The notes below the pieces were generated by a model that saw nothing but the letters and a program-made list of their open reading frames with translations, did no database searches and was not told where the DNA came from. Shown here one piece after another: positions 3,522-39,864 of a DNA stretch of 64,000 bases. The DNA is from Clostridia bacterium. Lineage in GTDB: Bacteria; Bacillota; Clostridia; Christensenellales; Aristaeellaceae. Each line of letters starts with the position of its first letter. The stretch's first letter is position 1. Both the position numbers and the translations under genes were made by a program. The stretch is from contig JAFSKN010000016.1 in the NCBI GenBank assembly GCA_017448975.1, forward strand, positions 62,001 through 126,000, written 5' to 3'.

Positions 3522-3585
3522 GGCTTTCTCGGAAGGGGGTCTGGGGGAAACCGCTCTTTGGCCTCCAAAGAGCGGTTTCCCCCAG
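3522..3585 (-). repeat. Dispersed hairpin element, copy 1 (short form)
   Basis: A 45-bp near-perfect palindrome (3541-3585, arms CTGGGGGAAACCGCTCTTTG and its complement, loop about 3 nt) is followed on the minus strand by the conserved tail ACCCCCTTCCGAGAAAGCC. It starts 10 nt after the mnmE stop codon. The same hairpin and tail recur at 21062, 24095, 37367, 37641, 38885 and 39697. No T-run follows, so it is not a classical terminator. Confidence 0.85.
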
Positions 3586-3595
3586 TATTTCCTTC

Positions 3596-4924
3596 TCATT
3601 TCCCCACACAGAAGCGTTCAAAGATTTCGTCGATCATTTTGTCGTCCACCTGCTCGCCGGTGATGCTGCCCAGAGCGGCCAGGGCGTCCTGGAGGTCGAT
3701 CACGGCCAGGTCGACAGCCTCGCCCCGGGCGCAGGCGTCGGCGGCGGCGCGGAGGGAAGAAGCGGCTTCCCTGGCCAAAAGCATGTGGCGCTGCTGGGTC
3801 AGGGCGCTTTCACCCGCACCGGCGCCAAAGGCTGCCACCCGCTTTTCCAGGTCGCGCAGGCCCGCCCCGGTTTGGGCGGAGACCACCACGGGATCGTCAA
3901 AATCGGCGGGGTTCAGGACCATTTCTTTGTCGCACTGGTTCAGCACGATGATCCGGGGCGCGTCCTTGGTATCTTCCAATAGCTGCCGGTCCTCGTCATC
4001 CAGGGGGAGGGAGGCGTTGAGCACGGCCAGTACCACGTCCGCCCCGGCGATGGCCTGGCGGGCCCGGTCCACGCCGATGCGTTCAATGACGTCGGCGGTG
4101 CCTTCCCGCAGGCCCGCGGTATCGGCAAAATGCACCCGCAGGCCGTCGATCATCACGTCGGCCCGAATGATGTCCCGGGTGGTGCCGGGAATATCGGTGA
4201 CGATGGCGCGCTCCTGCCGGGCAAGGGCGTTGAGCAGGGAGGATTTGCCCACGTTGGGCCGGCCGCAGAGCACGGCTTCCAGGCCCTGGTCGGCAATGCG
4301 CGCGCCGCGTTCGTCGCAGGCGGCTTCCAGTTTGTCCGCCAGCCGCCGGGCCCCCGCTTCCATATCGCTGGCCGCTTCCTCCAGGGTGATTTCCTCGGGA
4401 TAGTCGATGGCCGCCGCCGCGCCGGACAGCAGGGCGATCAGTTCCTCCTGGGCAGAACGCACGAAGCCGCTGACGCCGCCCTCCAACTGCCGCAGGGCCG
4501 CCCGTGCCGCACGTCCGCCTTCGGCGGAGATGAGGGCCATGACGGCCTCCGCCCGGCTCAAATCCACGCGCCCGTTCAAAAAGGCCCGGCGGGTAAATTC
4601 CCCTGGTCCGGCGGGACGCGCGCCTAAGCGATACAGGGCGGTCAGCACGGTCTGCGCCGCCCAGGAGCCGCCGTGGAGATGGATTTCCGCCACGTCCTCC
4701 CGGGTGTAGCTGCGGGGGGCGCGGAAAAGCACCGCCATACATTCGTCCAGGGTTTCCCCGTCATAAACGATATGGCCGTAATACATGCGGTGGCTTTCCC
4801 AATTCCGCGGGGGTGCGAACAGCCGGGACAGCAGCGCTTCCGCGTCCGGCCCGCTGACCCGCACGATGGCGATGCCGCCTTCACCCGGGGCCGTGGCCAG
4901 CGCCGCGATGGTATCCTGATCCAT
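3596..4924 (-). CDS. mnmE: tRNA uridine-5-carboxymethylaminomethyl(34) synthesis GTPase MnmE
   Basis: MnmE acts with MnmG to install the carboxymethylaminomethyl group on U34 of tRNAs. The product is about 442 residues from the ATG at 4924, which has a GGAAGGAAG ribosome binding site and begins MDQDTIAALATAPGEGGIAIVR, the canonical family N-terminus; a longer frame to 5035 carries no family sequence and is rejected. The formyl-THF-binding N-domain is followed by the inserted G domain (GRPNVGKSSLLNAL, DIPGTTRD switch, DTAGLRE, NQCDK). The C-terminus is FCVGK, matching the invariant CxGK motif whose Cys is essential. mnmG is not in the window. A dispersed hairpin element begins 10 nt beyond the stop. 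Confidence 0.97.
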   Translation of the reverse strand: MDQDTIAALATAPGEGGIAIVRVSGPDAEALLSRLFAPPRNWESHRMYYGHIVYDGETLDECMAVLFRAPRSYTREDVAEIHLHGGSWAAQTVLTALYRLGARPAGPGEFTRRAFLNGRVDLSRAEAVMALISAEGGRAARAALRQLEGGVSGFVRSAQEELIALLSGAAAAIDYPEEITLEEAASDMEAGARRLADKLEAACDERGARIADQGLEAVLCGRPNVGKSSLLNALARQERAIVTDIPGTTRDIIRADVMIDGLRVHFADTAGLREGTADVIERIGVDRARQAIAGADVVLAVLNASLPLDDEDRQLLEDTKDAPRIIVLNQCDKEMVLNPADFDDPVVVSAQTGAGLRDLEKRVAAFGAGAGESALTQQRHMLLAREAASSLRAAADACARGEAVDLAVIDLQDALAALGSITGEQVDDKMIDEIFERFCVGK

Positions 4925-5049
4925 GGTTCTTCCTTCCTTTCGGAGCGCTTCGCTCCGGCCCCTATGATAGCATAAAAGCGCCGCGGCTGGCAAGCGCGAG
5001 GCAAAGGAAGCACGGGACTTTCGCATGCAAGGCAAATTAGAATTTGCAG

Positions 5050-5171
5050 AGGTAGGAGGTAGAAGGTAGGAAGTAGGAGGTTTATAGTGTTTTCCAAAGA
5101 ATGAAAGTCCGGCTTTCGTTCATTGAACCGACTATACAAAACCTCCTACCTCCTACTTCCTACCTCCCACC
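5050..5171. repeat. Inverted heptamer-repeat palindrome (GGTAGGA type) in the 4925-5309 intergenic region
   Basis: The left arm (5050-5082) consists of tandem 7-mers of the type GGTAGGA/GGTAGAA/AGTAGGA. The right arm (5137-5171) is its near reverse complement, again in 7-bp steps. The 54-bp spacer contains a second hairpin (AATGAAAG ... CTTTCGTTCATT, about 5100-5124). It sits between divergent mnmE and the ZorA-like gene; the rest of this 385-bp gap holds only the promoter at 5247-5275. Palindromes of the same design but other heptamers lie at 18.6, 26.2, 47.2 and 62.5 kb. Confidence 0.85.
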
Positions 5172-5246
5172 TGAATAAATCCCAAGTTGTTGCTTATGCG
5201 TAAACCTTGAATGGAAAGTTTTACAGGTATAAATGTTACGTTTCCA

Positions 5247-5275
5247 TTGCAATTTTGGAGAAAATCTATTACAAT
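5247..5275 (+). promoter_or_regulatory. Promoter of the ZorAB-like operon
   Basis: TTGCAA (5247-5252) and TACAAT (5270-5275) have a 17-bp spacer and end 34 bp upstream of the ATG at 5310. The gene itself has a GGAAAGGAG ribosome binding site. Confidence 0.6.
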
Positions 5276-5309
5276 AGATGCATGACCCCTTTGGAAAGGA
5301 GCAGCGCTT

Positions 5310-6863
5310 ATGACGGACATTTTGGGAAGTATTACAGCAAACTTAACGGATTTTTGCATTTATTTGGCCATCGCCCTGGTGGCGCTGATCGGAATTTTCA
5401 AGTGCGTGCTGCCCGTCAGCCGGGTGGCGCGCAGGCTGCGGCGCGGCATTCATCTGTTGGAAACGGCCACGGGGGAGGGGCGGCCCGTATGGCAGGACGT
5501 GCTTTTTTTGGGCAAGGAGATTCAGGGGCCCTGGCGGCGCTTTTTGGTGAACGCCGAGCAATTGGACGCCCGTGGCCTGAACTGCAACGTGGAAGATTAC
5601 ATCAACGATGAAACGGTGATCTATTCCGTGGGCCACGCCCAATTGGCGGACGTGATACCCAGCCTGCTCACCAGCCTTGGTATTTTGGGCACCTTCATCG
5701 GCCTTATGCGGGGCCTGAGCGGGCTGGATATGAGCGACGCGGCCAAGACCATGGACAGCATTCCCCAGATGATCGGGGGCATGACGTTTGCGTTCATGAC
5801 CTCCATCGCCGGTATTTCCTGCTCCCTGCTGTTCAATATGCTCAACCGCATGGCCAACGGCAGCGCCACCAGCGCCATCGACGATTTTACCGACGCCTTT
5901 GCGGATCTTGTGATGCAAAAGCCCCTGGAGGACAACGTGCAGATGATCATCCAGTCCGAGGACCGGGCGGCGCTGCTGCGGCATATGTCCGCCGATGTGA
6001 GCGCGCGGGTCAGCGAGGGCATCACGGCCTCCGTGGAAAAATCCCTGTATCCTGTCACCCAGAGCATGAACAGCTTTATCATGGGCCAGACCCAGGCCCA
6101 GATCGACGGAGTGGCCAATATCGCCAACCAGTTCGTCAATCAGATGCACCGGATGCTGGGCAATCAGTTCGTACAGTTAGGCCAGACTCTTTCCCAGGTG
6201 AACCAGGCCCAGACGGTGTCCTTTGAATCCCTGGACCGCACCATGGCCGCCGCCGACCAGATTTTGAGCGGCATGAACCAATTGCAGGACGTGAACAATC
6301 GGGTCATGGAGCGGTTTGAAAGCTACATCAACACCATGGAGCAGGCCCAGACAAGCGGCAGCCAGTTTTTGACCCACGGCTCCCAGGTGTTAAGCGGAAT
6401 GCTTACCGCGTCCGAAGAACACGCCGCCTTTATGGACAGCCTGAAAGCCGCCCAGCAGGAATTAAAAGCCTCCATGCGCGATTACGCCGATTGGAGCAGC
6501 CGGGTGCTCACCGCCGTGCAGCAGCAGGCGGACGGGGCCATGGCTGTGACCGGCGGCATGACGGCCAAAATGGACGAAAGCAGCCGCCGCCTGTCCGAAA
6601 CCTACGCGGGCTTTGTGGAGGACCTGTCCGGCGGGTTCAGCCGCGCCCTGGGCATGTTCGACGAAAACATGCACAGCATGTTGGGCGCGCTGAATGAAAA
6701 ACTGGAAGAAATCCGCGAAATGGAGCGGCATCCCTCCGTCCAGGCCGCGAAGCTGCAAAAGGAAACGGAGGGCTGCGTATCCGCCCTTTCCCGGCTCCAG
6801 CGGGCCATGGCGGATATGAGCGCGGCCCTGGAGGGCAAGGACCGCACAGCGGAGGGCGCGTAA
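5310..6863 (+). CDS. MotA/TolQ/ExbB proton-channel protein, ZorA-like
   Basis: This 517-residue membrane protein belongs to the MotA/TolQ/ExbB superfamily, the ring subunit of proton-motive-force driven motors. Hydrophobic segments lie at about 15-40, 117-135 and 157-180. The motif IPSLLTSLGILGTFIGL, then GGMTFAFMTSIAGIS, is the superfamily signature in the last two helices. From about residue 200 to the end the protein is predicted soluble and helical, rich in Ala, Gln, Met and Glu, a long cytoplasmic tail like that of ZorA of the Zorya anti-phage system (ZorA from E. coli is longer). The gene is followed after 1 bp by an OmpA/MotB-like partner. No flagellar or Tol genes are near. The superfamily is secure; a Zorya-type role is an inference because no Zorya nuclease or helicase follows. 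Confidence 0.8.
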   Translation: MTDILGSITANLTDFCIYLAIALVALIGIFKCVLPVSRVARRLRRGIHLLETATGEGRPVWQDVLFLGKEIQGPWRRFLVNAEQLDARGLNCNVEDYINDETVIYSVGHAQLADVIPSLLTSLGILGTFIGLMRGLSGLDMSDAAKTMDSIPQMIGGMTFAFMTSIAGISCSLLFNMLNRMANGSATSAIDDFTDAFADLVMQKPLEDNVQMIIQSEDRAALLRHMSADVSARVSEGITASVEKSLYPVTQSMNSFIMGQTQAQIDGVANIANQFVNQMHRMLGNQFVQLGQTLSQVNQAQTVSFESLDRTMAAADQILSGMNQLQDVNNRVMERFESYINTMEQAQTSGSQFLTHGSQVLSGMLTASEEHAAFMDSLKAAQQELKASMRDYADWSSRVLTAVQQQADGAMAVTGGMTAKMDESSRRLSETYAGFVEDLSGGFSRALGMFDENMHSMLGALNEKLEEIREMERHPSVQAAKLQKETEGCVSALSRLQRAMADMSAALEGKDRTAEGA

Positions 6864-6864
6864 G

Positions 6865-7854
6865 ATGCTCAAACGCGGAAGAAAGGGCCGGGGTCCCCGG
6901 TCCGGGGATAACGGGGCCCATTGGATTTCCTATTCGGATATGATGGCGTCGCTGCTGCTGGTGTTCGTGCTGGCGGTGGTGTACAGCGTGTACCAGTATT
7001 ACAGCATGCTGGAAATCAAAACCCAGCAGCTGAACGAGCAGCAGGCGGAGCTGGACCGGGCCACCATCACCCTGGTGCAGCGGGAAGAAGAGCTGGAGGC
7101 CGCCAACGTGACCCTCATGGGCAAGCAGGAGGAGCTGGCCGCCATCCAAATTCAGCTGGATCAGCAGGAAAACGACCTGCATGCCGCTCAGGACGCCCTG
7201 AAAACCAAGGAAGAGGAGCAGGCGCGGCTGCAATTGCAGCTTGCCGCCATGCAAAGTGTGCTGGAGGCCCAGCGGGCAGAAATGCTCTCCTATCAGCACC
7301 GCATCGACGATATGATCGGCGTGCGCTCCAAGATCATCCAGGAATTGAGCCAGGCATTGTCCGCCGCCAACGTCGGCGCGTCGGTGGACGCGGCCACCGG
7401 CGATATCATCCTGGAGGGCAAGGTGTTCTTCGATTCCAGCAAAGACACCATCCGCACCGAGGGCCAGGAATTGCTGTCCCGGTTCGTGCCGGTGTATTTG
7501 GGCGTGCTCATGCGGCCTGAATACGTGGATTATGTGGGTGAAATCGTCATCGAAGGGCATACTGATACGGCCGGGTCCTATTTGACCAACCTGCGCCTGT
7601 CCCAGAACCGGGCCCTGTCCGTGGCGGAATACTGCCTGCAGCTGCCGTCCCTTTCAAGCAGACAGGTGAGCCAGCTCCAGGAATTGCTTACCGCCAAGGG
7701 CCGCAGCTTTTCCGACCCCATCTATAAGGCGGACGGCTCCGTGGATATGGACGCCTCCCGCCGGGTGGAATTCAAGTTCCGCCTGAAGGATTCCGAAATG
7801 ATTCAGGAAATGGACCGTATTTTGACGCAAATGGAGGCGCAGAACAGCCTGTGA
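6865..7854 (+). CDS. MotB/OmpA-domain motor protein, ZorB-like
   Basis: This 329-residue protein is the likely stator partner of the upstream channel. A short cytoplasmic N-terminus leads to one transmembrane helix starting WISYSDMMASLLLVFVLAVV. The Asp at residue 25 occupies the position of the proton-carrying Asp of MotB, PomB and ZorB. A Gln/Glu-rich coiled coil (about 47-150) follows, then an OmpA-like peptidoglycan-binding domain (about 165-310) with EIVIEGHTDTAG and LRLSQNRALSVAEYCL, which contain the Asp and Arg that bind diaminopimelate. It overlaps the next gene by 4 bp (GTGA), indicating translational coupling. Coiled-coil linker plus OmpA domain resembles ZorB more than TolR or ExbD. 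Confidence 0.82.
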   Translation: MLKRGRKGRGPRSGDNGAHWISYSDMMASLLLVFVLAVVYSVYQYYSMLEIKTQQLNEQQAELDRATITLVQREEELEAANVTLMGKQEELAAIQIQLDQQENDLHAAQDALKTKEEEQARLQLQLAAMQSVLEAQRAEMLSYQHRIDDMIGVRSKIIQELSQALSAANVGASVDAATGDIILEGKVFFDSSKDTIRTEGQELLSRFVPVYLGVLMRPEYVDYVGEIVIEGHTDTAGSYLTNLRLSQNRALSVAEYCLQLPSLSSRQVSQLQELLTAKGRSFSDPIYKADGSVDMDASRRVEFKFRLKDSEMIQEMDRILTQMEAQNSL

Positions 7855-8339
7855 GAACCGCAGCCATTGTTTTGCTCGCGCTGGTGCTGGCCGTGGGCGG
7901 CGTGCTGGGGTGGGAGCTTTTCCACACCAATTTGCAGGTGACGGGCAAGGCCCTGCAAACCCTGCCCGCCCGGGACCGGGCGCCCCAGTACGACGCCCTG
8001 CGCGCCGCCGTCGCCCGCCAAAGCCTGCTGGGCACGGTGCTGAAAAAAACGGAAATGGGCCCGGCGGAGAATTACAGCTATTATATTTATACGCTGCGGC
8101 TCAAAAACAACGGGCTGGTGCCCGCTGAAATGGTGGAAATGCAGGTCGCGCCCATTGAAAACGACGTGCTTTTTTACGGCGACACCGCCGAAACGGTGAT
8201 CCCGCCCGGGGAAGAAAAGGACGTGTGGGTGGTGCTGCTCACCGAGGGCACGCCCCATTCCGTGCGGGATCTGTATGTGACCTACTATCTGTGGGGGCAC
8301 CCCCAGGAAGTGAAATATACCTATGACGACGCGCGTTAA
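7851..8339 (+). CDS. Membrane-anchored protein of unknown function in the motor operon
   Basis: This 162-residue protein starts at a GTG that overlaps the stop of the OmpA-domain gene. Residues 4-24 (AAIVLLALVLAVGGVLGWEL) form a signal anchor, so the remainder should face the cell wall side. The rest is predicted beta-rich (YYIYTLRLKNNGLVPAEMVE, then VIPPGEEKDVWVVLL), resembling FxLYD or other immunoglobulin-like sandwich domains, but I do not recognise a specific family. Its stop lies within the next gene, which overlaps by 17 bp. Tight coupling to the motor pair and a dipeptidase suggests an envelope-side accessory subunit. Confidence 0.6.
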   Translation: MRTAAIVLLALVLAVGGVLGWELFHTNLQVTGKALQTLPARDRAPQYDALRAAVARQSLLGTVLKKTEMGPAENYSYYIYTLRLKNNGLVPAEMVEMQVAPIENDVLFYGDTAETVIPPGEEKDVWVVLLTEGTPHSVRDLYVTYYLWGHPQEVKYTYDDAR

Positions 8340-9012
8340 AACGGCGGTGATTGCCGCCTTGCTGTGCCTGCTGCCGCTTTGCGCTTCCGCCGAACCTGCC
8401 CGCGAGCTGCCCGACGGCTTCTGTTACGTGCATGAAGTGATCGCCGATGTGATCCTGGATATCCGCTACGCGGGCACCCACAATTTCGTGGGGGACGTGA
8501 TCGACGGGTACGAAGCGCCTTACGCCATCCTGACCGTGGAGGCGGCGGAACACCTAAAGGAAGCGGCGGACGAATTCCGGCAGATGGGCTTCCGCCTCAT
8601 GATCTTTGACGCTTACCGCCCTCAGCGGGCCGTGAAGCACTTCGTCCGCTGGGCCAAGGACGCCGGCGACACGCGCATGCAGGCGGAATTTTATCCCGAA
8701 TACAAAAAGAAGATTTTGCTGGTGGACGAGGGCTATATCGCCCGCAATTCCAGCCATTGCCGGGGCAGCGCCGTCGATCTGACGATCACCGACATGGACG
8801 GGAACCCTTTGGATATGGGCACAGGCTTTGACTATTTCGGCAAATTAGCCTGGCACGGAGCCAAGGGCGTGACGGAGGAACAGGCCGCGAACCGGGAAGT
8901 GCTGTGTACCGTCATGGAAAAGCATGGCTTCAAGCGGTTTAATCATGAATGGTGGCATTATCGGCTCAAAAACGAGCCGTACAGCGAAGGGTTTGATTTT
9001 CCGGTACGATAA
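8323..9012 (+). CDS. D-alanyl-D-alanine dipeptidase (M15D, VanX/DdpX-like), secreted
   Basis: This 229-residue zinc peptidase hydrolyses D-Ala-D-Ala or related D,D-dipeptides. A signal peptide (hydrophobic residues about 7-22, ending CASAEP) exports it, unlike cytoplasmic VanX, so wall-derived dipeptides are a more likely substrate than the cytoplasmic precursor pool. The family motifs are complete: a DAYRPQRAV region with the catalytic Arg, SSHCRGSAVDLTI with the SxHxxGxAxD zinc ligands, and EWWHY with the catalytic Glu and third His ligand. It is the last gene of the motor operon and overlaps its predecessor by 17 bp. No vanH, vanA or regulator genes are near, so glycopeptide resistance is not suggested. 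Confidence 0.9.
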   Translation: MTTRVKTAVIAALLCLLPLCASAEPARELPDGFCYVHEVIADVILDIRYAGTHNFVGDVIDGYEAPYAILTVEAAEHLKEAADEFRQMGFRLMIFDAYRPQRAVKHFVRWAKDAGDTRMQAEFYPEYKKKILLVDEGYIARNSSHCRGSAVDLTITDMDGNPLDMGTGFDYFGKLAWHGAKGVTEEQAANREVLCTVMEKHGFKRFNHEWWHYRLKNEPYSEGFDFPVR

Positions 9013-9035
9013 CGAATACAAAAGGAGAGATTGCC

Positions 9036-10448: not shown

Positions 10449-10465
10449 TCAAACGGTTCAAAAAT

Positions 10466-16659: not shown

Positions 16660-17799
16660 TTATTCCGCCAGCAGGGCTTCCAGTATTTTGGCGTCCAAAT
16701 ACTGATACTGTACCATATTCACGGCGCTGTTTTCGCCGGTCAGCACAAAGTGGGTAGCCGCGTCGTAGCCCTTGCCGTCCGCAAAGAGGAACATCCGGAC
16801 GCGGGAAAGTGTGCTGCCCCCGGACAGCGCGCCGGGATAAATGGGCAGCAGCAGCTGATCGCCTAAGCTGATCTCCAGGTCCCCGGAGAACCAGGACGAA
16901 ATGCTGTTGTACACCGCGTCGATCGTTTCCTGGCTGGACGCGGTTGCTTCCGTCACACTTACAGCGCCTTTGCCGTCGATCACCGTGCAGATGATTTGCG
17001 ACAGTTCGGCGTTTTCGTCCAGGCCGTCGAACACAAGGATGGCGGTGTCCTGGGAACCCTCAAAGCGCACCGTCCAATACTGGACGCCGTTCGCCTCATC
17101 AATCACCGGATTGCCCATGTCCGCGCCGATGCCCTGGAGCTTCGCTTCGCTGAGGGGCATGCCGAAATAGAAAGCATCAAAGTAGAGGACACGGGGGACA
17201 GTTTGCGATTGATCGTCCGCATTTTCATCCTCCTGGATCCAAGACAGCAGCTGCTGCAGCTTTCCCCGAACGAACTGCTTGACGGAATCCGCGGCGTTGG
17301 CGGCGGTATCCTTGATGTTTTCCCAGATTATGGGGCCCGCCACCTCGGCAAGGTCAATCAGGTCGGACAGGCGCTCTTTTCCCTTTTCCCAAGCCTCCTT
17401 GGCTTTGTCGGTCAGTCCCTGAAGGGCATCCGGGACTTGACCGGCAAGCTCCGAGGCTTTTTCGGAGATAGCATTGGCGGCGTTTTTGGCTTTTTCCTGG
17501 GCGGAATCCCACAGATCGCCCAGCTCCGAGGCCTTGTCGGAGATGGTCTTGGCGGCGTTTTCGGCTTTTTCCTGGGCGGAATCCCACAGATCACCCAGCT
17601 CCGAGGCCTTGTCGGAGATGGTCTTGGCGGCGTTTTCGGCTTTTTCCTGAGCCGAACCCCACAGATCGTTCAGCTGAGCGCCGATATTGCTCCAAAATCC
17701 GGATGCATCCTCATTGTCTTCGGGCGTTTCTTCCGCCAGAGCGAAGCCGGACGGAAGGGCGAGCAGCAGGACAAGCAGCAGAGCAAGCAGTTTTTTCAT
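16660..17799 (-). CDS. Secreted protein with three 25-residue helical repeats and a FGMP-type C-terminal domain
   Basis: This 379-residue protein has a signal peptide ending SGFALAEE. Residues about 40-120 consist of three near-identical 25-residue units of the type DLWDSAQEKAENAAKTISDK, an amphipathic Ala/Lys-rich repeat like those of LEA or apolipoprotein-like helices. A second helical stretch (about 120-190) follows, then the C-terminal domain (about 200-379) shared with the adjacent 201-residue protein. The function is unknown. The repeats suggest a flexible helical stalk or membrane/surface-binding region; repeat number could vary between strains. Confidence 0.65.
   Translation of the reverse strand: MKKLLALLLVLLLALPSGFALAEETPEDNEDASGFWSNIGAQLNDLWGSAQEKAENAAKTISDKASELGDLWDSAQEKAENAAKTISDKASELGDLWDSAQEKAKNAANAISEKASELAGQVPDALQGLTDKAKEAWEKGKERLSDLIDLAEVAGPIIWENIKDTAANAADSVKQFVRGKLQQLLSWIQEDENADDQSQTVPRVLYFDAFYFGMPLSEAKLQGIGADMGNPVIDEANGVQYWTVRFEGSQDTAILVFDGLDENAELSQIICTVIDGKGAVSVTEATASSQETIDAVYNSISSWFSGDLEISLGDQLLLPIYPGALSGGSTLSRVRMFLFADGKGYDAATHFVLTGENSAVNMVQYQYLDAKILEALLAE
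17447..17671. repeat. Three tandem 75-bp coding repeats
   Basis: Units at 17447-17521, 17522-17596 and 17597-17671 start with AGCTCCGAGGC and are nearly identical, the last two almost perfectly. They keep the reading frame (25 codons each) and encode the helical repeat of the secreted protein. Confidence 0.9.
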
Positions 17800-21009: not shown

Positions 21010-21061
21010 ACGAAAAAAGGCCGATCACAGTAAGAAAGACCGTTCAAGAAAAGACATTTAT

Positions 21062-21125
21062 GGCTTTCTCGGAGGGTGGTCTGGAGGGAACCTCTCTTTG
21101 GCCTCCAAAGAGAGGTTCCCTCCAG
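21062..21125 (-). repeat. Dispersed hairpin element, copy 2 (short form, covarying stem)
   Basis: A 45-bp palindrome at 21081-21125 begins 10 nt after the stop of the GH4 gene, with the tail CCGAGAAAGCC on its distal side. Relative to copy 1 the stem carries paired changes (GGGGGAAACCGC becomes GGAGGGAACCTC, and the partner strand changes to match), so pairing is kept while sequence is not. Confidence 0.88.
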
Positions 21126-21135
21126 CAATATCTTC

Positions 21136-22443
21136 TTAGTGGTACTCCGGCAGCCAGCCCTTATGGGCTTCGATGAGGTCGTCGCACAGGGCCACGATGT
21201 CGTCGATGGACAGCTCGCTCTGGCAGTGGGGGTCCATCATGGCGGCCTGATAGATGTAATCCTTTTTCAGGGTCACGGCGGCCTGGATGGTGAGCAATTG
21301 CACGTTGATGTTTGTGCGGTTCATGGCGGCGCAGACTTCGGGCAGGTCGCCCACATAGGTGGGGGTGACGCCGCTGGCGTCGGCGATGCAGGCCACCTCC
21401 ACGCAGGCGGTGGGGGGCAGGTTGGTGATCAGGCCGGTGTTCAGCACGTTGCCGCCGAATTTGAAGGGCTTGTTGGTTTCCATGGCCTCCATGATGCGGC
21501 TGGCGTATTCGCTGCTGCGGGTGTGGGTCAGGTGGGGGTCTTTTGTCAGTTCGTCCCGCTGCTTTTCCCAGCGGGCGATCTGGTTCACGCAGCGGCGGGG
21601 GTATTCGTCCAGGGGGATGTTGAAGCGGTCGATCAGCTCCGGGTATTTGTCCTTGATGAAATAGGGCATGTATTCTGCGCTGTGCTCGCTGGACTCGGTG
21701 ACGTAGTAGCCGAAGCGCTTCATGATTTCCAGGCGCACCATGTCCCCGTGCTTTTCGGTGATCTGGGCGCAGCGGCGCTTGATTTCGGGGTACAGGTTCT
21801 CGCCGTTTTTGGTGATTTCCAGCAGCCAGGCCTGATGGTTGATCCCGGCGATTTTGTACTGCACGGTGTCGTCGTATTCCATGCCCGCGTGCTTCATGAG
21901 GGTGGGGGCGCAGACCTGGACGCTGTGGCACAGGCCCACGGTTTTGATGGGGGTATAGCGCTGCATGGCCCCGGAGAGCATGGCCATGGGGTTGGTGTAG
22001 TTCAGGAACCAGGCGTTGGGGCACACTTCCTCCATGTCCCGGGCGAAATCGAACATCACCGGAATGGTGCGCAGGGCACGGAAAATGCCGCCGATGCCCA
22101 AGGTGTCCCCGATGGTCTGGCGCAGGCCGTATTTCTTGGGAATCTCAAAATCGGTCACGGTGCATGGCTCGTACAGGCCCACCTGAATGGCGTTCACCAC
22201 GTAATTGGCCCCCCGCAGGGCGGCTTTGCGGTTTTCCACCCCGCAGTAGGTTTCAATTTTCGCCTTGTTCCCCAAATTGCTGTTGATACAGGACAGCATG
22301 AGGCGGGATTCTTCCAACCGCTTGAGGTCGATGTCGTACAGGGCAATCACGCTGTTTTCCAGCGCCGGGGTACACATGCTGTCGCCTAACACGTTCTTGG
22401 CGAACACCGTGGAGCCCGCGCCCATGAAGGTGATTTTCGGCAT
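21136..22443 (-). CDS. GH4 family glycosidase, alpha-galactosidase (MelA-like)
   Basis: This 435-residue enzyme belongs to glycoside hydrolase family 4, which uses NAD+ and Mn2+ in a redox-elimination mechanism. The start at 22443 has GGAGG upstream and gives [20 protein letters not shown], the NAD-binding N-terminus. [11 protein letters not shown] and TVGLCHSVQ (metal-binding Cys and downstream His) match alpha-galactosidase/alpha-glucuronidase members rather than phospho-glycosidases. Alpha-galactosidase is the likeliest activity; alpha-glucuronidase is an alternative. No dedicated transporter is adjacent. A dispersed hairpin element sits just beyond the stop. Confidence 0.88.
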
Positions 22444-22513
22444 GATGGTTTCCTCCTGCTTGTGCAATCAATTTTATCCCGGATAAACCAAAATGGTTTT
22501 TCCCAGGCGTTCT

Positions 22514-24074: not shown

Positions 24075-24094
24075 AAGATCATCTCCATTATTTC

Positions 24095-24158
24095 GGCTTT
24101 CTTGGAAAGGGGTGTGGGGGAAACCGTTCTTTGGCCTCCAAAGAATGGTTTCCCCCAC
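24095..24158 (-). repeat. Dispersed hairpin element, copy 3 (short form)
   Basis: A 45-bp palindrome (24114-24158, GTGGGGG ... CCCCCAC) starts 15 nt after the tkt stop, with tail CCAAGAAAGCC distal. The stem contains one G-T wobble (GTTC with GAAT). Confidence 0.85.
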
Positions 24159-24173
24159 ATCAATTTTTCGTAT

Positions 24174-26150
24174 TTACTTCCCCACAACTTCCTTGGCGGC
24201 CTTCACGGCGTTTTCCACGGTGAAGCCAAATTCCTTGAACAGGACGGAATAGGGGGCGGAAGCGCCGAAGCGGTCGATGCCCAGGGCTTTGCCGTCCAGG
24301 CCGGTGAAGCGATACCAAGGCATGGTGACGCCAGCTTCCATGGAAACGCGGGCGCGGACGCAGGGCGGGATCACCTTGTCCTGATATTCCTTGGGCTGTT
24401 TCAGGAACAGTTCCATGCAGGGCATGGAAATGACCCGGGCGTCGATGCCGTCTTTCTTGAGCTCTTCCTTGGCGCCCATCATCTGCTCCACCTCGGAGCC
24501 GGAGGCCATGAGCAGCACGTCGGGGGTTTCCTTGTCGGAATCGGCCAGGACGTAGCCGCCCTTCATGGCTTCGCAGCCGCTGTTCTCGTACTGGGGCAGG
24601 TTCTGGCGGGTGAGCACCAAGCAGGTGGGCAGCCCGGCGGTGAGGGCCGTCAGCCAAGCGGCGGTGGTTTCCTTGCCGTCGGCGGGGCGGAACACCAGCA
24701 TATCGGGCACGGCGCGCAGGCCGGTCAGGTGCTCGATGGGCTCGTGGGTCGCGCCGTCCTCGCCCACGCCGATGGAGTCGTGGGTCAGCACGTAGGTGAC
24801 GGGCAGCTTCATAATGGCGCTCATGCGCATGGCGTGCTTCATGTAATCGCTGAACACGAAGAAGGTGCCGCAGAAGACGCGCAGGCCGCCGTGGAGGGCG
24901 ATGGCGTTGCAGATAGCCGCCATGGCATGCTCGCGCACGCCGAAGTGCAGGTTCCGGCCCGCCCGGTTTTCGGCGGAATAATCGCCGCCGTCCTTGATGT
25001 AGGTCTTGTTGGAGGGGGCCAGGTCGGCGCTGCCGCCCACCAGATTGGGCAGGAGCTTGGCAAGCCGGTTGATCATTTCGCCGGAGGTGGCGCGGGTGGC
25101 CATCTTGTCGCCCCACTGCCAGAGCGCGTCGTTAAGCGCCACTTCGTCGGGCAGCTCGGTGCTGTGCCAGGCTTCCCATTCCTCGGCCAGCTCGGGGTAC
25201 GCCTTGCAGTAGTTCACGAACAGGGCGTTCCATTCCGCTTCGGCCTTTTCGTTCTTTTCCATCAGGGCGTTCACGTGCTCGTATACCTCGGGCAGCACAC
25301 AGAAGTCTTCTTCAGGCATGCCCAGGTTCTTCTTGGTGGCCAGCACGTTGTCCGGGCCCAGAGGCTCGCCGTGGGCGGAGGACTTGCCTTCCTTGGCGGG
25401 GCAGCCGAAGCCGATCTTGGTGGGGCACACGATCAGGGAGGGCCGGTCGTCCTTCTTGGCTTCCTCAATGGCGGCGATGATGGCCTCGGGGTCGTTGCCG
25501 TCCTGGAGGCGGATCACCTGCCAGCCGTAGGCTTCAAAGCGGGCGGGCACGTTCTCGCGGAAAGCGATGTCGGTGTTGCCCTCGATGGAGATTTCGTTGT
25601 CGTCGTACAGCAGGGTCAGCTTGCCTAACTTCAGGGTGCCCGCCAGGGAGCAGGCTTCGCTGGAAATGCCTTCCATCATGCAGCCGTCGCCGCAGAAGGC
25701 GTAGACCCGGTGATCCACAATGGGGAAGTTGGGGCGGTTAAAGTGGGCGGCCAGCATGGTTTCGGCGATGGCGAAGCCCACGGCGTTGGCGACGCCCTGG
25801 CCCAGGGGGCCGGTGGTGGTTTCCACGCCCACGGTGTGGCGGTACTCGGGATGGCCGGGGGTCTTGGTGCCCCACTGGCGGAAGCCCTTCAGATCGTCGA
25901 TGGTCAGGCCGTAGCCGGTCAGGTGGAGCATGGTGTACATGAGGGCGCTGGCATGGCCGCTGGACAGGACGAACCGGTCACGGTCGGGCCAGGTGGGGTT
26001 CTTGGGGTTGTGCTTCATCTGGTTCATCCACACGGCGTAAGCCATGGGAGCCATGCCCATGGGCGCGCCGGGATGGCCGCTCTTGGCCTTCTGTACGGTG
26101 TCGGCGGCTAAGGTGCGGATGGTGTTGACGGTCTTCTGACGGATATCCAT
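24174..26150 (-). CDS. tkt: Transketolase
   Basis: Transketolase transfers two-carbon ketol units in the pentose phosphate pathway using thiamine diphosphate. The start at 26150 ([15 protein letters not shown]) has GGAGGAGA upstream, giving 658 residues, the usual bacterial full length. Visible signatures are [19 protein letters not shown], the thiamine-diphosphate motif [18 protein letters not shown] with a downstream Asn, and the second signature in [13 protein letters not shown]. Unlike many Clostridia it is a single polypeptide, not split. A dispersed hairpin element follows the stop. Confidence 0.97.
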
Positions 26151-26208
26151 GGTGTTCTCCTCCCAATTCTTGGTATCTTTCCCTTTGTTCACTTGCAGCG
26201 TGGTGACA

Positions 26209-26298
26209 GAGTTGAGATATTTTTTTGTCGTTCAAAGATGGCACGGAATGCGACAGCTATATAAATCTCAACTCTCAACTCTACACTCTCAACTCTTA
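26209..26298. repeat. Asymmetric heptamer-repeat element (GAGTTGA type)
   Basis: The right arm (26264-26298) has tandem 7-mers of the TCTCAAC type. The left arm (26209-26220) has only about one and a half units (AGAGTTGAGAT). The spacer contains GTCG...CGAC. It fills the gap between tkt and the phosphohexomutase stop and looks like a partly lost copy of the 47.2/62.5 kb elements. Confidence 0.75.
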
Positions 26299-34472: not shown

Positions 34473-34523
34473 ACAAAGAAACCGGCCTTGTATGGACGGC
34501 ACTTCGGAAGCTTGGAGGGCATC

Positions 34524-35888
34524 ATGCAAATCATTGTGATTGGCGGGGGAAAGTTGGGCATCTCCCTGGCGCAGCATTTGGTGGATGAAAGCCATAATGT
34601 GACCATGATCGAGCGCAGCGAATTGGTGATGCAGAAAAATATGGATACTCTGGACGCCATGTTCATCAAGGGCAGCGGCGTCAGCGCCGATACCCTGCGG
34701 GAAGCGGACGCGCCCCACGCGGATATCGTGATCGCCGCCACCATGGGCGATGAGATCAATATGCTGGCCTGCCTGACGGCCAAGCGCTTGGGCGCGCAGT
34801 ACGCCATCGCCCGCATCCGCGACCCGGAATACCTGACCAGCCTGTCCTTTTTGCAGAAGGAACTGTCCATCGACTACGCGATCAACCCGGAGCGGGCCAC
34901 CGCACGGGAAATCAGCCGCATGCTGCGCTTCCCCTCGGCGGGCGGCATTGAAACCTTTGCCCGGGGCCGGGTGGAAATGGTGGATTTCCGCGCCACGGAG
35001 GGCGACCCGGTGGTGGGCGTGCCCATGAAGGAAATGTACAAAAAGAACCGGCAGCTGCCCCAGGTGCTGTTCTGCGCGGTGGAGCGGGGCGGAAAAATCA
35101 TCATCCCCAAGGGCGATTTTGTCATTGCGCCCGGGGACCGGGTGCACGTGGTATCCGATCCGGGCACCGTCACCCGCTTTTTCGATTTCCTGGGCCGGGG
35201 CGTGGGCGCCATCCGTTCCGTGATGATCATGGGCGGCAGCCGCATCGCCTATTATCTGGCGGATATGCTGCTGAACATGAAGATCAAAACCTCCATTGTG
35301 GAAATCAAGCCCGAAAAAGCCCGCCGCCTGTCCGAAATGCTGGCGGGGGCGACCATCATCGAGGGCGACGGCACGGATCAGGAGCTGCTGGAAAGCGAGG
35401 GCATCGCCGACGTGCAGGCTTTCGTGACCCTGGCCGACCGAGACGAGGAAAACCTGATGGCCGGGTTCTACGCCGCCAAGCGGGGCGTGAAAAAGGTGAT
35501 CGTGAAATCCAGCCGGGACACCTATTCCGCCATCATGCAGGATATGGGGCTGGACAGCATCATCAGCACCAAGAGCGTCGCCACCAACGATATCCTGCGG
35601 GTGGTGCGCTCCCGCTCCAGCCGGAACGATTCGGCGGTGCAGCGCATGTACCGCCTGATGGACGGCAAGGCGGAGGCCCTGGAATTCATCGCCCAGGCGG
35701 GCGACAGCTTCATCCATGTGCCCCTGAAGGATCTGCACGTGATCCCGGACGCCCTGGTGGCCGTGATCGTGCGGGAGGGGCAGGTGAAGGTGCCCTTCGG
35801 CAGCGACACCATCGAGGTAGGCGACTACGTGGTGGTGGTCAGCCGCCAGCCGGGCCTGAGCGCCCTGCGGCAGGTATTCAGGACATAA
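34524..35888 (+). CDS. trkA: Trk potassium uptake regulatory protein TrkA
   Basis: TrkA is the cytosolic NAD(H)/nucleotide-binding gating ring of the Trk K+ channel. I start at the ATG at 34524 (MQIIVIGGGKLGISLAQHLV), with GGAGG upstream, giving 454 residues. It has the usual duplicated layout: RCK-N (Rossmann, GGGKLG), RCK-C, then a second RCK-N (VMIMGGSRIAYYLADMLL) and RCK-C. The gene is followed after 16 bp by trkH, its membrane partner. Confidence 0.96.
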   Translation: MQIIVIGGGKLGISLAQHLVDESHNVTMIERSELVMQKNMDTLDAMFIKGSGVSADTLREADAPHADIVIAATMGDEINMLACLTAKRLGAQYAIARIRDPEYLTSLSFLQKELSIDYAINPERATAREISRMLRFPSAGGIETFARGRVEMVDFRATEGDPVVGVPMKEMYKKNRQLPQVLFCAVERGGKIIIPKGDFVIAPGDRVHVVSDPGTVTRFFDFLGRGVGAIRSVMIMGGSRIAYYLADMLLNMKIKTSIVEIKPEKARRLSEMLAGATIIEGDGTDQELLESEGIADVQAFVTLADRDEENLMAGFYAAKRGVKKVIVKSSRDTYSAIMQDMGLDSIISTKSVATNDILRVVRSRSSRNDSAVQRMYRLMDGKAEALEFIAQAGDSFIHVPLKDLHVIPDALVAVIVREGQVKVPFGSDTIEVGDYVVVVSRQPGLSALRQVFRT

Positions 35889-35904
35889 AAAGAAGGTATT
35901 GCAT

Positions 35905-37350
35905 TTGAATTATAAGCTTGTATTCCGGCTGCTGGGCAGGCTGCTGCTGATGGAAGCCGTGCTGATGATCCCCGCCCTGACGGCGGCGCTGATATACGGC
36001 GGGGGAGACGCGGCGGCCTTTGTGTTCACCATCGGCCTGACGGCCCTGTGCGGCGCGCTCATGAGCTGCCTGCTCAAGCCCCGGCGGGAGGATTTGACCG
36101 CCCGGGACGGCATGGCGGTGGCGGGGCTGAGCTGGCTGATCCTTTCCTTTTTCGGGGCGCTGCCCATGGTGTTTTCCGGGGCCATCCCGAACCTGGTGGA
36201 CGCCTACTTTGAAACGGTCAGCGGCTTTACCACCACCGGCTCCACCATCCTGACGGAAATCGAGCATCTGCCCAGGGGCGTGCTGTTCTGGCGGTCCTTT
36301 ACCCACTGGATCGGCGGCATGGGCGTGCTGGTGTTCACCCTGGCGGTGCTGCCCCGGCTGTCGGGGCGCACGTCCCATTTGGCCCGGGCGGAAAGCCCCG
36401 GCCCCACCTTCGCTAAGCTCCTGCCCAAAATGAGCGATACGGCCAAGCTGCTCTACGGCCTGTATTTCGCCCTGTCGCTGCTGGAGGCGGTGTGCCTGCT
36501 GCTGGCGGGCATGAACGTGTACGACGCCCTGATCCATACCTTCGGCACGGCGGGCACCGGCGGCTTCTCCAACTATAACGCCAGCGTGGGCGCGTTCCAG
36601 AATCCCCTGATCGAATGGATCATCGGCGTGTTCATGATGCTGTTCGGCGTGAACTTCGCCGTGTATTTCCACCTGCTCCGCAAGGAAAAGGAAGCGATCC
36701 GGCAAAGCGAGGAGCTGTGGTTCTATCTGATCCTGATCGGTGTGTCAACTCTGATCATGACGGTGACCATCCTGCCCCAGTATCCCGGTTTTTTCACGGC
36801 GCTGCGCACAGCCTTCTTCCAGGTCACATCCATCGCGTCCACCACCGGCTTTTCAACGGCGGATTTTAACCTGTGGCCCCTGTTTTCCAAGGCGCTCGTG
36901 GTGCTGCTCATGTGCTTAGGGGCGTGCGCCGGGTCCACGGCGGGCGGGTTCAAGCTGAGCCGCATCCTGCTGCTGTTCAAATCCTCCTACCGGGATTTGG
37001 AGCATACCCTGCAGCCCCGGAAGGTGGCGGTGGTGCGCTTCGAGGGCAAGCCCGTGCAGGAAAGCACCCTTGCGCAGATTGGCGTGTATTTGGCTATCTG
37101 GCTGTTTCTGGCCGTGGTGGGCACGCTGCTTCTGTGCATCCGGGAAACGGACTTTGTCACCGCCATGACGGCGGCGCTCACCTGCCTGTCCAACGTGGGG
37201 CCGGGTCTCAACGGCGTGGGGCCAACGGAAAACTTCGCCCACTTCTCCCCCGCCGCCAAGCTGCTGCTTTCCTTCTACATGCTGGCGGGCCGCCTGGAAA
37301 TCTACCCCATCCTGCTGCTGTTCTCTCCCAACGTATGGAGAAAAAATTAA
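35905..37350 (+). CDS. trkH: Trk potassium uptake transmembrane protein TrkH
   Basis: TrkH forms the K+-conducting pore. The 481-residue protein shows four P-loop filter segments, ETVSGFTTTGSTIL, TFGTAGTGGFSNY, SIASTTGFSTADF and CLSNVGPGLNGVG, each with the conserved Gly. No ATG fits the N-terminus. A TTG at 35905 (MNYKLVFRLLGRLLL) lies 8 nt after AGAAGG and is chosen; a TTG at 35899 is closer to the ribosome binding site. It probably pairs with TrkA from the same operon. A long hairpin element starts 16 nt after the stop. Confidence 0.95.
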   Translation: MNYKLVFRLLGRLLLMEAVLMIPALTAALIYGGGDAAAFVFTIGLTALCGALMSCLLKPRREDLTARDGMAVAGLSWLILSFFGALPMVFSGAIPNLVDAYFETVSGFTTTGSTILTEIEHLPRGVLFWRSFTHWIGGMGVLVFTLAVLPRLSGRTSHLARAESPGPTFAKLLPKMSDTAKLLYGLYFALSLLEAVCLLLAGMNVYDALIHTFGTAGTGGFSNYNASVGAFQNPLIEWIIGVFMMLFGVNFAVYFHLLRKEKEAIRQSEELWFYLILIGVSTLIMTVTILPQYPGFFTALRTAFFQVTSIASTTGFSTADFNLWPLFSKALVVLLMCLGACAGSTAGGFKLSRILLLFKSSYRDLEHTLQPRKVAVVRFEGKPVQESTLAQIGVYLAIWLFLAVVGTLLLCIRETDFVTAMTAALTCLSNVGPGLNGVGPTENFAHFSPAAKLLLSFYMLAGRLEIYPILLLFSPNVWRKN

Positions 37351-37366
37351 TCCATGAAATAATTGC

Positions 37367-37530
37367 GGGGGAAACCGCTCTTTGGATGCCAAAGAGCGGT
37401 TTCCCCCTTTCCGCAGCCTCAATCGGCGCAACTCCCCACAGGGGAGATTGCTTGTTTCGGCTGATCTCACCTCGGACGATATTTCCGCCACAGGCGGTCG
37501 TCCGAGGTTCGTCCCCCTCCGAGAAAGCAA
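37367..37530 (+). repeat. Dispersed hairpin element, copy 4 (long, three-hairpin form)
   Basis: Starting 16 nt after the trkH stop, hairpin 1 (37367-37407) is followed by CCGCAGCCTCAATCG, hairpin 2 (CTCCCC aca GGGGAG), the linker GTTTCGGCTGATCTCACC, hairpin 3 (CTCGGACGA ... TCGTCCGAG enclosing CCGCC aca GGCGG) and the tail TCCGAGAAAGCAA. The layout is the same as at 39697-39864, with paired stem changes. A bidirectional terminator follows at 37601, so the element would be part of the trkH mRNA. Confidence 0.88.
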
Positions 37531-37600
37531 TAAAAAATCTGGCCAAATGCAATTTTTCTTCAAAACCTTGTGAGAGAAAAGAGAATGGCTGCTTTGAATG

Positions 37601-37637
37601 AAAAAAACTGTCCCTTTTTGAGCAGGACAGTTTTTTT
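37601..37637. terminator. Bidirectional terminator between trkH and dnaJ
   Basis: The stem AAACTGTCC / GGACAGTTT is flanked by A-runs and T-runs on both sides (AAAAAAACTGTCC ... GGACAGTTTTTTT), so it works for both convergent operons. The remaining 37351-37716 space is filled by hairpin-element copies 4 and 5. Confidence 0.9.
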
Positions 37638-37640
37638 GCG

Positions 37641-37703
37641 GTTTTCTCGGAAGGGGGTCTGGGGGAAACCGCTCTTTTGCCTCAAAAGAGCGGTTTCCCC
37701 CAG
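37641..37703 (-). repeat. Dispersed hairpin element, copy 5 (short form)
   Basis: A 45-bp palindrome at 37659-37703 starts 13 nt after the dnaJ stop, with tail CCGAGAAAAC distal. The stem top CTCTTTTG/CAAAAGAG is a compensatory variant of CTCTTTGG/CCAAAGAG. It lies upstream of the terminator in the dnaJ transcript. Confidence 0.87.
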
Positions 37704-37716
37704 AAAACTTTTTCGG

Positions 37717-38850
37717 TCAGCCGTTGAAGAGTTCTTTTACCTTATCCAGGAAGCTCTTGCGGGTTTCGTATTCCTTGCCGGAGGAGGCGTCCTCGAACTG
37801 GCGGAGCAGGTCCTTCTGCTTTTCGGAAAGACGGCGGGGGATTTCCACCCGGATATGCAGGATCAGGTCGCCCCGGTAGGTGCTGCGAAGCTGCTGGATG
37901 CCCTGGCCTTTCAGGCGGATTTCGGCGTCGTTCTGGGTGCCCTCGGGGATATGCACGGTGGTTTTGCCGCCTCCTAAGGTGGGCACGTCGATTTCCGCGC
38001 CCAGGGCCGCCTGGGTGAAGGAAATGGGCAGGTCCAAATGCAGGTTGGTGCCGTCCCGCTTGAAGAGCTTGTGGGGACGCACGGTGATCTGAATGTACAG
38101 ATCGCCGTTGGGGCCGCCGTTGCGGCCCGGCTCGCCCTGGCCGTTCATCACGATGGTCTGGCCGTTGTCGATGCCCGCGGGCACTTTGACGGAGGCGGTG
38201 CGGCGGCGGCGCAGACGGCCCGTGCCGGCGCAGGCAGAGCACTTGTCGGTGATCACCTTGCCGGTGCCGCCGCAGGTGGAGCAGGTGCGCACGGTGACCA
38301 TGAAGCCGCCGGACACGCGAACCTGGCCCGTGCCTTTGCAGGTGGGGCAGGTCTTGGGCTGGGTGCCGGGCTTGGCGCCGGTGCCGTGGCAGGTGTCGCA
38401 GTTTTCGCTGCGGGTGAACTCAAAGGATTTTTCGCAGCCGAAAGCGGCTTCCTCAAAGGAAATGCGTAGATCGTAGCGCAGGTCGTTGCCCTGCATGGGG
38501 GCGTTGCGCCGCTGGGCCGCGCTGGCGCCCATGCCGCCGCCGAAGAGCTGGTCGAAAATATCGCCCATACCGCCGAAGCCGCTGAAATCAAAGCCGCCCG
38601 CACCGCCGCCGAAGCCGCCCATGTTGGGGCCGTCGTGACCGAACTGGTCATAGCGCGCGCGCTTTTCCGGGTCGGACAGAACCTCGTTGGCTTCGTTCAG
38701 CTCCTTGAAGCGCTCCTCAGCCTGCTTGTCGTTGGGGTGCAGGTCGGGGTGGCATTCCTTGGCGAGTTTCCGGTACGCCTTTTTGATATCCTCGGCGCTG
38801 GCCTTTTTATCTACGCCCAGCACTTCGTAGTAGTCTCTTTTTGTTGCCAT
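37717..38850 (-). CDS. dnaJ: Chaperone DnaJ
   Basis: DnaJ stimulates DnaK ATPase and delivers unfolded clients. The 377-residue protein has the J domain with the HPD motif (ECHPDLHP), a Gly-rich linker, four zinc-binding repeats ([32 protein letters not shown]) and the C-terminal substrate-binding domain. It is the last gene of the hrcA-grpE-dnaK operon, but a secreted-protein gene and two hairpin elements separate it from dnaK. Confidence 0.97.
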
Positions 38851-38884
38851 TGTTTCCTCAACTCACAATTAGTTGATTTTATTT

Positions 38885-38950
38885 CTGGGGGAAACCGCTC
38901 TTTGGTGCCCAAAAAGCGGTTTCCCCCAGCCCCCCTTTCCGAGAAAGGCG
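38885..38950 (+). repeat. Dispersed hairpin element, copy 6 (short form, opposite polarity)
   Basis: A 45-bp imperfect palindrome at 38885-38929 is followed on the plus strand by CCCCCTTTCCGAGAAAG. It lies 34 bp upstream of the dnaJ ATG and is the only copy not directly behind a stop codon in the usual polarity. Together with copy 7 it brackets the secreted-protein gene as inverted copies. Confidence 0.85.
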
Positions 38951-39028
38951 AATGGGAAGTGAATGAATACTATTCCCTGCTTCAGCCACATAATACAAAA
39001 GGTGGGAATCATAGCTGATTACACTTCT

Positions 39029-39682
39029 TTATTGCCACGGGACGTAAAACCGGTGAATGGTGGCCAGATTGCCTTCGCCGTCGAAAACCACGTACACATT
39101 GGAGGCGGTCAGGCCTACGTTATACACCTGGTCGGCATCCTCCTCCAGCAATCGGGTCGTCAGCTCCCGGGCGGTATGCACCACGGGCAATTCCAACATG
39201 TTTCCAGTTTCGTCGTTGATATAATCCAGAAACAGCAGGCTGTCCTTCACCGGGCATTCGATCACGGCCAGCTCGATCCAAGTATAGGCGTCGTCCCATT
39301 CGGATACCGCCGCGAAATCGCCGCTGCCGTCAGAGCACCGGGACAAATTGACGCTGCCGTCGTTAATCTTGATGTAATCGCCCCAGTAGTCTTGTTTCGC
39401 TATGGTTTCAATCGTAACTTCCCGGCCATCGGTGTAAATGCTGTCGCCCACCTTCAGGGCCTCTACATCTTCCCAGGAAAAGATTTCGGGCACGATCAGT
39501 TCCACGGTCAGGGTATTTTCTTTTTCGTTGTATCCCAGGATGCGGGCATAGGAGGCCGTTTTTTCCAGATGCTCCGGGTTGATTTCCGCCGCAAGGGCGG
39601 TGATCACATCGGCGGAGGCAACGGAACAAAAAAACGGAGAAATCGTCAGCATGAGGGCGATTGATAGAACCAGCTTCTTCAT
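39029..39682 (-). CDS. Secreted hypothetical protein inserted between dnaK and dnaJ
   Basis: This 217-residue protein has a signal peptide (LVLSIALMLTISPFFCSVASAD). I recognise no family. The mature part is predicted mixed alpha/beta with acidic surface and ends HRFYVPWQ. It separates dnaK from dnaJ, which are normally adjacent in Bacillota. It is flanked by inverted copies of the dispersed hairpin element (38885-38950 and 39697-39864), which suggests that it arrived as an insertion. Being within the operon, it should be heat-shock induced unless transcription ends before it. Confidence 0.6.
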   Translation of the reverse strand: MKKLVLSIALMLTISPFFCSVASADVITALAAEINPEHLEKTASYARILGYNEKENTLTVELIVPEIFSWEDVEALKVGDSIYTDGREVTIETIAKQDYWGDYIKINDGSVNLSRCSDGSGDFAAVSEWDDAYTWIELAVIECPVKDSLLFLDYINDETGNMLELPVVHTARELTTRLLEEDADQVYNVGLTASNVYVVFDGEGNLATIHRFYVPWQ

Positions 39683-39696
39683 ATCTTCCTCCTATT

Positions 39697-39864
39697 GCTT
39701 TCTTGGAAAGGGGACGAACCGCCGATGACCGCCTGTGGCGGAAATCTCATCGGCGGTGAGATCAGCCGAAACGAGCAATGTCCGCATGAAGCGGACTTGC
39801 GACGATTGAGGCTGCGGACCTGGGGGAAACCGCTCTTTGGCTTCCAAAGAATGGTTTCCCCCAG
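39697..39864 (-). repeat. Dispersed hairpin element, copy 7 (long, three-hairpin form)
   Basis: Read on the minus strand from 13 nt after the dnaK stop: hairpin 1, CCGCAGCCTCAATCG, hairpin 2 (GTCCGC ttcat GCGGAC), GTTTCGGCTGATCTCACC, hairpin 3 (CGCCGATGA ... TCATCGGCG enclosing CCGCC aca GGCGG), tail CCAAGAAAGCAA. Linkers are almost identical to copy 4, while stems differ by compensatory pairs. Confidence 0.88.

Follow-up and report, generated by a model that had tools for sequence, protein, structure and literature searches.

Why does one palindrome recur seven times within 36 kb of a clostridial genome, with stems that differ between copies and nevertheless pair? The window, a stretch of 64,000 nucleotides from a Clostridia bacterium, had been described from its letters alone as carrying a modular, dispersed hairpin with covarying stems and a conserved tail, selected for folding rather than merely copied recently. 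Here we ask what this element consists of, where it is found and what its tail might do. Modularity, dispersal and covariation are upheld below, as is the view that selection for folding, and not just recent copying, is at work; the conserved tail requires a different description. The sequence-only reading had passed over the presence of two separable elements, a tail that tracks the stem, a placement after stop codons and a genus-wide spread.

One element in two forms

All seven sites hold the element when their positions are checked in the window. They represent a single element, A, which occurs either plain or with a second module, B, between its palindrome and its tail. Plain A is ~75 nt long and combines a ~20-bp palindrome (19-22 bp per arm: CTGGGGGAAACCGCTCTTTGG, a loop of 3-5 nt, and the reverse complement) with a tail, usually A, a pyrimidine run, CC and then [G/A]AGAAAGC.

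Copy 1 (3515-3589, minus strand; palindrome at 3541-3585, followed by the tail) lies directly after the stop of mnmE (3596-5035, minus). Copy 2 (21055-21129, minus; tail CCACCCTCC) follows an alpha-galactosidase-family gene (21136-22467, minus) and differs from the common stem at three pairs, each changed on both sides, just as had been read. Copy 3 (24088-24162, minus), with an ATTC stem and a CCAAG tail, comes after a transketolase gene (24174-26192, minus), and copy 4 (37361-37530, plus), composed of A palindrome, module B (37410-37514, plus) and A tail, after a TrkH-type gene (35899-37350, plus). Copy 5 (37633-37707, minus) sits between the dnaJ stop (dnaJ at 37717-38850, minus) and a terminator-like hairpin with a T run; one of its stem pairs is changed on both sides, again as claimed. 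Copy 6 (38881-38956, plus) is located upstream of dnaJ, which is on the other strand. It is the exception in placement: a close upstream sense stop codon was looked for and not found. The second composite, copy 7 (39695-39868, minus; A palindrome at 39820-39865, module B at 39712-39818, minus, then the A tail), directly follows dnaK (39878-41713, minus), the gene that precedes A in the majority of the genus's readable species. The extra length of copies 4 and 7 comes from a separate module of 105-107 nt that sits between palindrome and tail. Simple conservation does not describe the tail: where the other copies read CCGAG, copies 3 and 7 read CCAAG, a difference that proves to be coupled to the stem when many copies are compared.

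Copy number, spread and stem covariation

Is A a local curiosity? The genome to which the window belongs is available as 3.08 Mb in 80 contigs, 85% complete. BLAST places A at ~42 sites in it (82 matches over both strands; 40 candidates scored), and a covariance-model search at 62 sites of at least 64 bits (150 candidates scored), a number far beyond chance. Each of the models, R1 and R2, derives from 20 sequences picked by hand. Within the genus, 28 of the 29 genomes searched are positive, the exception being G017; A-like hairpins also occur in G047 and G051, members of two further families of the order. In a hand-picked set of 20, 11 of 21 stem pairs of A are changed on both sides, and orthologous copies differ between species by compensatory changes. 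Compensatory change is thus displayed by A and B alike, and covariation is strong in both. Nor has a named family emerged: scanned against Rfam, the window yields a tRNA as its sole match at gathering score, which neither A nor B reaches. A relaxed threshold returned weak microRNA-like and similar matches, all below gathering score, and these were set aside.

Placement after stop codons and at dnaK-dnaJ

In the window's own genome, 46 of 53 A copies start -6 to 40 nt from a sense stop codon, compared to 19 of 53 on the mirrored side and 22.5% of 1060 random positions; these controls show the high background of a test that counts open frames of at least 60 codons. In other species the values are 31/48 against 11/48 on the other side, with shorter flanks. 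The distance to the stop is 3-20 nt in 67 of the 77 cases where it was found. Could A then be an intrinsic terminator? Five Ts within 60 nt after the hairpin are present in only 36 of the 155 parsed elements introduced below, and copy 5 precedes an intact terminator-like hairpin, so that A is probably not itself the terminator.

The dnaK-dnaJ site was looked at in 21 species, and A is present in 15 of the 20 that are readable (G023 is not). In G026 and G014, A is present with a different repeat inside its hairpin; in G001, G002 and G017 it is absent, G002 carrying a shorter GGGGAAACCC hairpin there. Of the species read, only G000, G010 and G025 have A at the end of dnaJ, where it stands ahead of a terminator-like hairpin; most other readable species have a terminator-like hairpin or another hairpin repeat in its place. 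Since A occupies the dnaJ end in few species and the dnaK site in most, it can evidently be gained, and is old at dnaK. A position after stop codons, above all between dnaK and dnaJ, raises the question of mRNA decay and operon stoichiometry.

Module B behaves as a structured insertion

Module B, ~107 nt long and with covarying stems, splits element A in copies 4 and 7; read by eye, it also occurs in tandem and inside four or more further hairpin repeats. Its consensus has a branched first part and a long second hairpin. Changes on both sides affect 14 of 36 pairs in 20 chosen sequences and 25 of 36 in 87 distinct rows, with 96.9% and 95.9% of cells pairing, respectively, although the 87-row alignment was fitted to the structure and is hence biased toward it. 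None of 500 shuffles matches the pairing percentage or the covariation score. An excess of G-U (43 cells versus 15 A-C) was considered as proof of RNA and dropped, as one pair supplies 22 of the 43.

The own genome contains 67 B matches at E ≤0.01, fragments included. Under strict filters, B is found in 20 of 60 genomes searched, all of them in the genus (20/29 there), and is absent from 7 other genera of the family and 24 other families, each represented by one genome. B-bearing named relatives are metagenome-assembled genomes called Clostridia, Clostridiales or Christensenellaceae (78 stretches), several of which come from rumen or reticulum. At the dnaK site, the close relative G010 has A without B, whereas G000 and G004 have A with differing versions of B that enter at an identical point, after CCCCCAG. 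By eye, B is bounded by TCC and GTCC at its sites in several contexts. We propose that B is a separate structured insertion which would enter hairpin repeats, A among them, next to a CC.

If B behaves like an insertion, might A itself be REP-like or MITE-like non-autonomous mobile DNA, whose transposase recognizes hairpin and tail, so that covariation serves the enzyme? The high copy number of A and its restriction at the dnaJ end to three of the species read would agree with this, as would the insertion-like behaviour of B. However, neither of the two transposase families searched follows B copy number: the Y1 family, considered as a RAYT-type mover, occurs in 10 of 29 genomes and was not found in 10 genomes with at least 23 B copies, and IS110-type enzymes occur in 4 of 29. 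In the 3.3 kb around the window genome's own Y1 gene, neither the A nor the B motif was found. We consider mobility of this kind a rather improbable account of A.

The tail follows the stem in parallel register

When three genera were compared by eye, the tail resembled a mirror of the 3' arm, an observation that prompted a formal test. We parsed 155 A elements of the genus (55 from the own genome, 100 from other species), requiring a hairpin of at least 15 pairs, a TCTTT anchor and a CCnAGAA tail; many rows came from the top of score lists, and the sample leans toward the consensus accordingly. Antisense false tails and duplicates, 85 of the 240 rows in the initial mutual-information set, had been removed. 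In these elements, a C-G stem pair goes with tail G in 107 of 108 cases and a T-A pair with tail A in 42 of 42, that is, in 149 of 150 clean pairs. At stem position -8, A-T is accompanied by tail T (9/9), and G-C by C in 111 cases and T in 32. Of 13 clean pairs in composite copies, 12 obey the main rule and one breaks it (two more stems are mismatched), and mismatched C.A stem pairs have tail G in 3 of 4.

Mutual information between stem and tail is highest for (-1, 0), (-2, 0), (-12, -9), (-12, -4), (-7, -4) and (-8, -5), and the lower-ranked (-10, -7) and (-11, -8) are in the same register. Apart from (-2, 0), which arises because -2 is linked with -1, and (-12, -4), which goes together with length changes, these pairs have a constant difference, i.e. 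a parallel register, with a two-step shift where the purines switch strand. With (-1, 0) left out, the summed excess over 87 distinct combinations reaches 0.887 at the parallel lag -3, compared to 0.381 at the best antiparallel lag and a maximum of 0.385 at any lag in 200 shuffles. With (-1, 0) retained, one antiparallel sum rises to 0.812, from that pair alone. Coupling is not uniform along the stem. At (-7, -4), the own genome has T over A-T in 46/46 and C over G-C in 8/8, of which five have stem and tail each one step shorter, and part of the signal is therefore coupled length; in other species, 15 of 18 G-C pairs at -7 go with tail T, and C is thus not required over G. Beyond the genus, an element-level coupling within G047 was not supported, its A-like hairpins keeping the architecture, and G051 shows weak coupling (Spearman 0.52, p 0.018, n 20, with no tree correction).

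Need this involve a third strand at all? Two main subfamilies, one with a GCTC stem and CCGAG tail, the other with an ATTC stem and CCAAG tail, might have spread whole, the link being shared descent plus replacement at fixed sites. On the gene tree of the dnaK site, stem and tail states each change 4 times; the 3-4 independent pairs all agree, but so small a number does not reach significance (sign test p 0.25), and these coupled switches could be replacements of whole elements. Fifteen orthologous groups contain at least two distinct rows; three hold both states, and stem and tail switch as a unit in all three. Against mere descent, stem -1 is linked to tail 0 at 0.85, to its neighbour -2 at 0.36, and to the other variable columns of these elements at no more than 0.09. 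Where the neighbouring G is kept, as in GT stems, the tail is A in 7/7; AC and TC stems have tail G in 26/26. The parallel register, seen at several sites, also speaks against it. We regard spread of intact subfamilies without a third strand as unlikely.

Template-switch correction of imperfect palindromes would produce paired stem changes without selection. Copy 5 offers an example of the pattern: G000 and G010 show two paired changes and one altered loop base between them, and identical sequence over ~130 nt downstream. Such correction should, we infer, be unable to generate a parallel (mirror) copy, as a parallel complement cannot come from copying, and it would leave the tail unexplained; the outer stem of B, moreover, closes over ~45 nt of other sequence. 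As the source of the palindromes' paired changes it seems very improbable to us, and it would not be a full explanation. We also considered, and discarded, a tail bound to the 5' arm by Watson-Crick pairs, because neighbouring bases misfit and the register is parallel. Antiparallel Watson-Crick pairing cannot account for a parallel register; an alternate-strand triple helix can.

A predicted third strand and its possible role

How could one tail follow both arms? The idea of an alternate-strand triple helix supplies a geometry. We propose that the tail acts as a third strand, folding back along the 19-22 bp hairpin and running parallel to the 5' arm. Its initial half (CCCCCTT or CCCCTTT) would lie over 5'-arm purines as C.G-C and T.A-T, a parallel pyrimidine motif; it would cross strands at CC; and its second half ([G/A]AGAAA) would lie over 3'-arm purines as G.G-C and A.A-T, an antiparallel purine motif. 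The sequences, their placement, the covariation in parallel register and the conservation after dnaK are direct observations, and the tail bases, judged from sequence, appear to fit known triads. Both motifs are as given in PMC4666352, which, in the sections used here, knows the purine-motif triads from DNA.

Acting in the transcript, A may block 3'-to-5' decay and would thereby prolong the life of the upstream mRNA, for instance dnaK over dnaJ. Protection of upstream mRNA is the most likely use of A by analogy with E. coli operons, in which hairpins without a U tract have this effect, according to the parts of PMC5927463 consulted. Placement and orientation of A argue for a function in the transcript; the purine half of the tail and the near-equal counts of G-T (15) and A-C (18) stem mismatches, which give no sign of an RNA strand preference, do not. 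Purine-motif triads are doubtful in RNA, and this half consequently fits an mRNA role poorly. In 51 of 125 elements, compared to 6.2 expected, the pyrimidine run could pair instead with a downstream purine run. Taken together, we give an even chance to A being a 3'-end hairpin with a predicted third-strand tail that probably protects the upstream mRNA.

Might the third strand form in DNA instead? An intrastrand triplex extruded on one strand, similar to PIT or TM elements, could stall polymerases or destabilize the locus, and positions after stop codons would then be those where it is tolerated. Both triad sets are classical for DNA, and TM oligonucleotides fold as triplexes in vitro (both from the sections of PMC4666352 drawn on here); the mismatch types of A show no RNA bias, and in G026 and G014 other repeats have entered its hairpin. 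Yet A is oriented to the upstream gene at short spacing, unlike E. coli TM elements, which that source describes as free of strand bias and distance trend, and genus-wide conservation at dnaK does not resemble instability. A DNA triplex is, in our estimation, an unlikely reading. Confidence in the various alternatives overlaps, and some of them can hold together with others.

Why would such a tail matter? Bacterial repeats with triplex potential have been catalogued from sequence patterns, and their role is not settled, as far as the consulted part of PMC4666352 goes; its main text makes no mention of compensatory change or covariation, and the literature searched yielded no account of bacterial repeats whose third strand covaries. 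The copies of A amount to a natural mutagenesis with matched stem and tail variants, which renders the structure directly testable. If experiments confirm it, this would be an unusual natural triple helix at gene ends in a group of gut bacteria. The broader proposition, to which we give somewhat less than an even chance, is that dispersed natural alternate-strand triple helices stand at gene ends with three-strand covariation throughout the genus, that the architecture recurs in sister families from two or more further families of the order, and that a second structured module inserts beside such hairpins.

Comparison with known systems

No published description of A was found in the literature searched. 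Which known repeats does it resemble? Intrastrand-triplex (PIT/TM) and BOX repeats come nearest. The comparisons below draw on selected parts of each source. The PIT, BoxC and TM-ECO elements (Holder et al. 2015, PMC4666352) are likewise dispersed intergenic bacterial hairpins with an adjacent stretch able to fold back as a third strand. TM elements use a single purine motif with 9-nt blocks and loops of 3-6 and 3 nt (PMC4666352), whereas A mixes pyrimidine and purine motifs over both strands of a 19-22 bp stem, lies mostly after stop codons in sense orientation, and has a tail that covaries with the stem. The ITxF/PIT rule demands three consecutive blocks of uniform triads, with loops of 1-6 nt and one class at a time (PMC4666352). 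Compared with this rule by reading, the sequences of A offer triad-competent blocks, but with two motifs, a strand switch and longer spacers, and the rule would not capture them.

BOX elements of Streptococcus are modular folded repeats with an optional middle module, and are nested in one another (PMC3049150). The same kind of modularity, end modules with an optional internal one, is seen in A, which occurs plain or with a single B, while B is found in tandem elsewhere; compared by description only, the two differ in that B lies inside several other repeat families and A is mostly at gene ends. REP and BIME sequences associated with RAYT, including GTAG and CGTC REPs, are palindromes mainly downstream of coding regions and plausibly transcribed (PMC3733652). 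The stem of A is 19-22 bp, and neither a constant GTAG foot in the copies read nor a linked RAYT was found. B ends in TTCGTCC, which holds CGTC, but is far larger than the 8-9 bp stems of CGTC REPs (PMC3733652). Protective 3' hairpins such as that of malE-malF are, like A, stable post-gene hairpins without a U tract, but the parts of PMC5927463 used here present them neither as a dispersed family nor with a third strand. Thus its mixed motif, stem length, placement and covarying tail set A apart from the known triplex and modular repeats.

Copy number and surroundings of module B

Several contigs of the genome under study end inside module B, the structured unit of about 107 nt with covarying stems (ends of C1, C9, C21, C49, C59, C71 and C80). 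Because the assembly breaks within the module, its copies in this genome are probably undercounted. At five loci (L038, L069, L071, L063 and L067), B is enclosed by larger multi-hairpin repeats of several types, and homology extends about 250–400 nt beyond the module; inverted double hairpins apparently lie at both ends of some of these enclosing repeats. A unit resembling the first half of B is present in three copies inside about 400 nt in another genome, G024 (locus L104, 1312-1708).

B variants ending in GGTTCATCC are found in antisense orientation at the 3' end of putative sugar ABC permease genes (L042, L046, L085, L130, L137 and L098). GGATGA on the reverse strand of these variants would provide the stop codon.

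Other repeats and element A

Degenerate AACTCTCAACTCT-type repeats occur in the window at 26257-26296, 47238-47302 and 62479-62612, and a 75-nt repeat is present three times in tandem at 17447-17675, within a stretch that contains long open frames. Elsewhere in the genome, a single Y1-type transposase gene (L114, G000:C64:6841-7170) has CAGGGGACGGTTCTCTGTG-like repeats close to both of its ends, which bear no relation to element A, the dispersed palindrome-and-tail repeat, or to B.

At the dnaK-dnaJ junction of genomes G026 and G014 (L266, L267), the hairpin of A has been entered by a different repeat, and its outer arms can still pair despite the insertion. Outside the genus, A-like hairpins form two subfamilies in another family of the order (L322-L376, loci of genome G051 included), sometimes spaced a few hundred bases apart.
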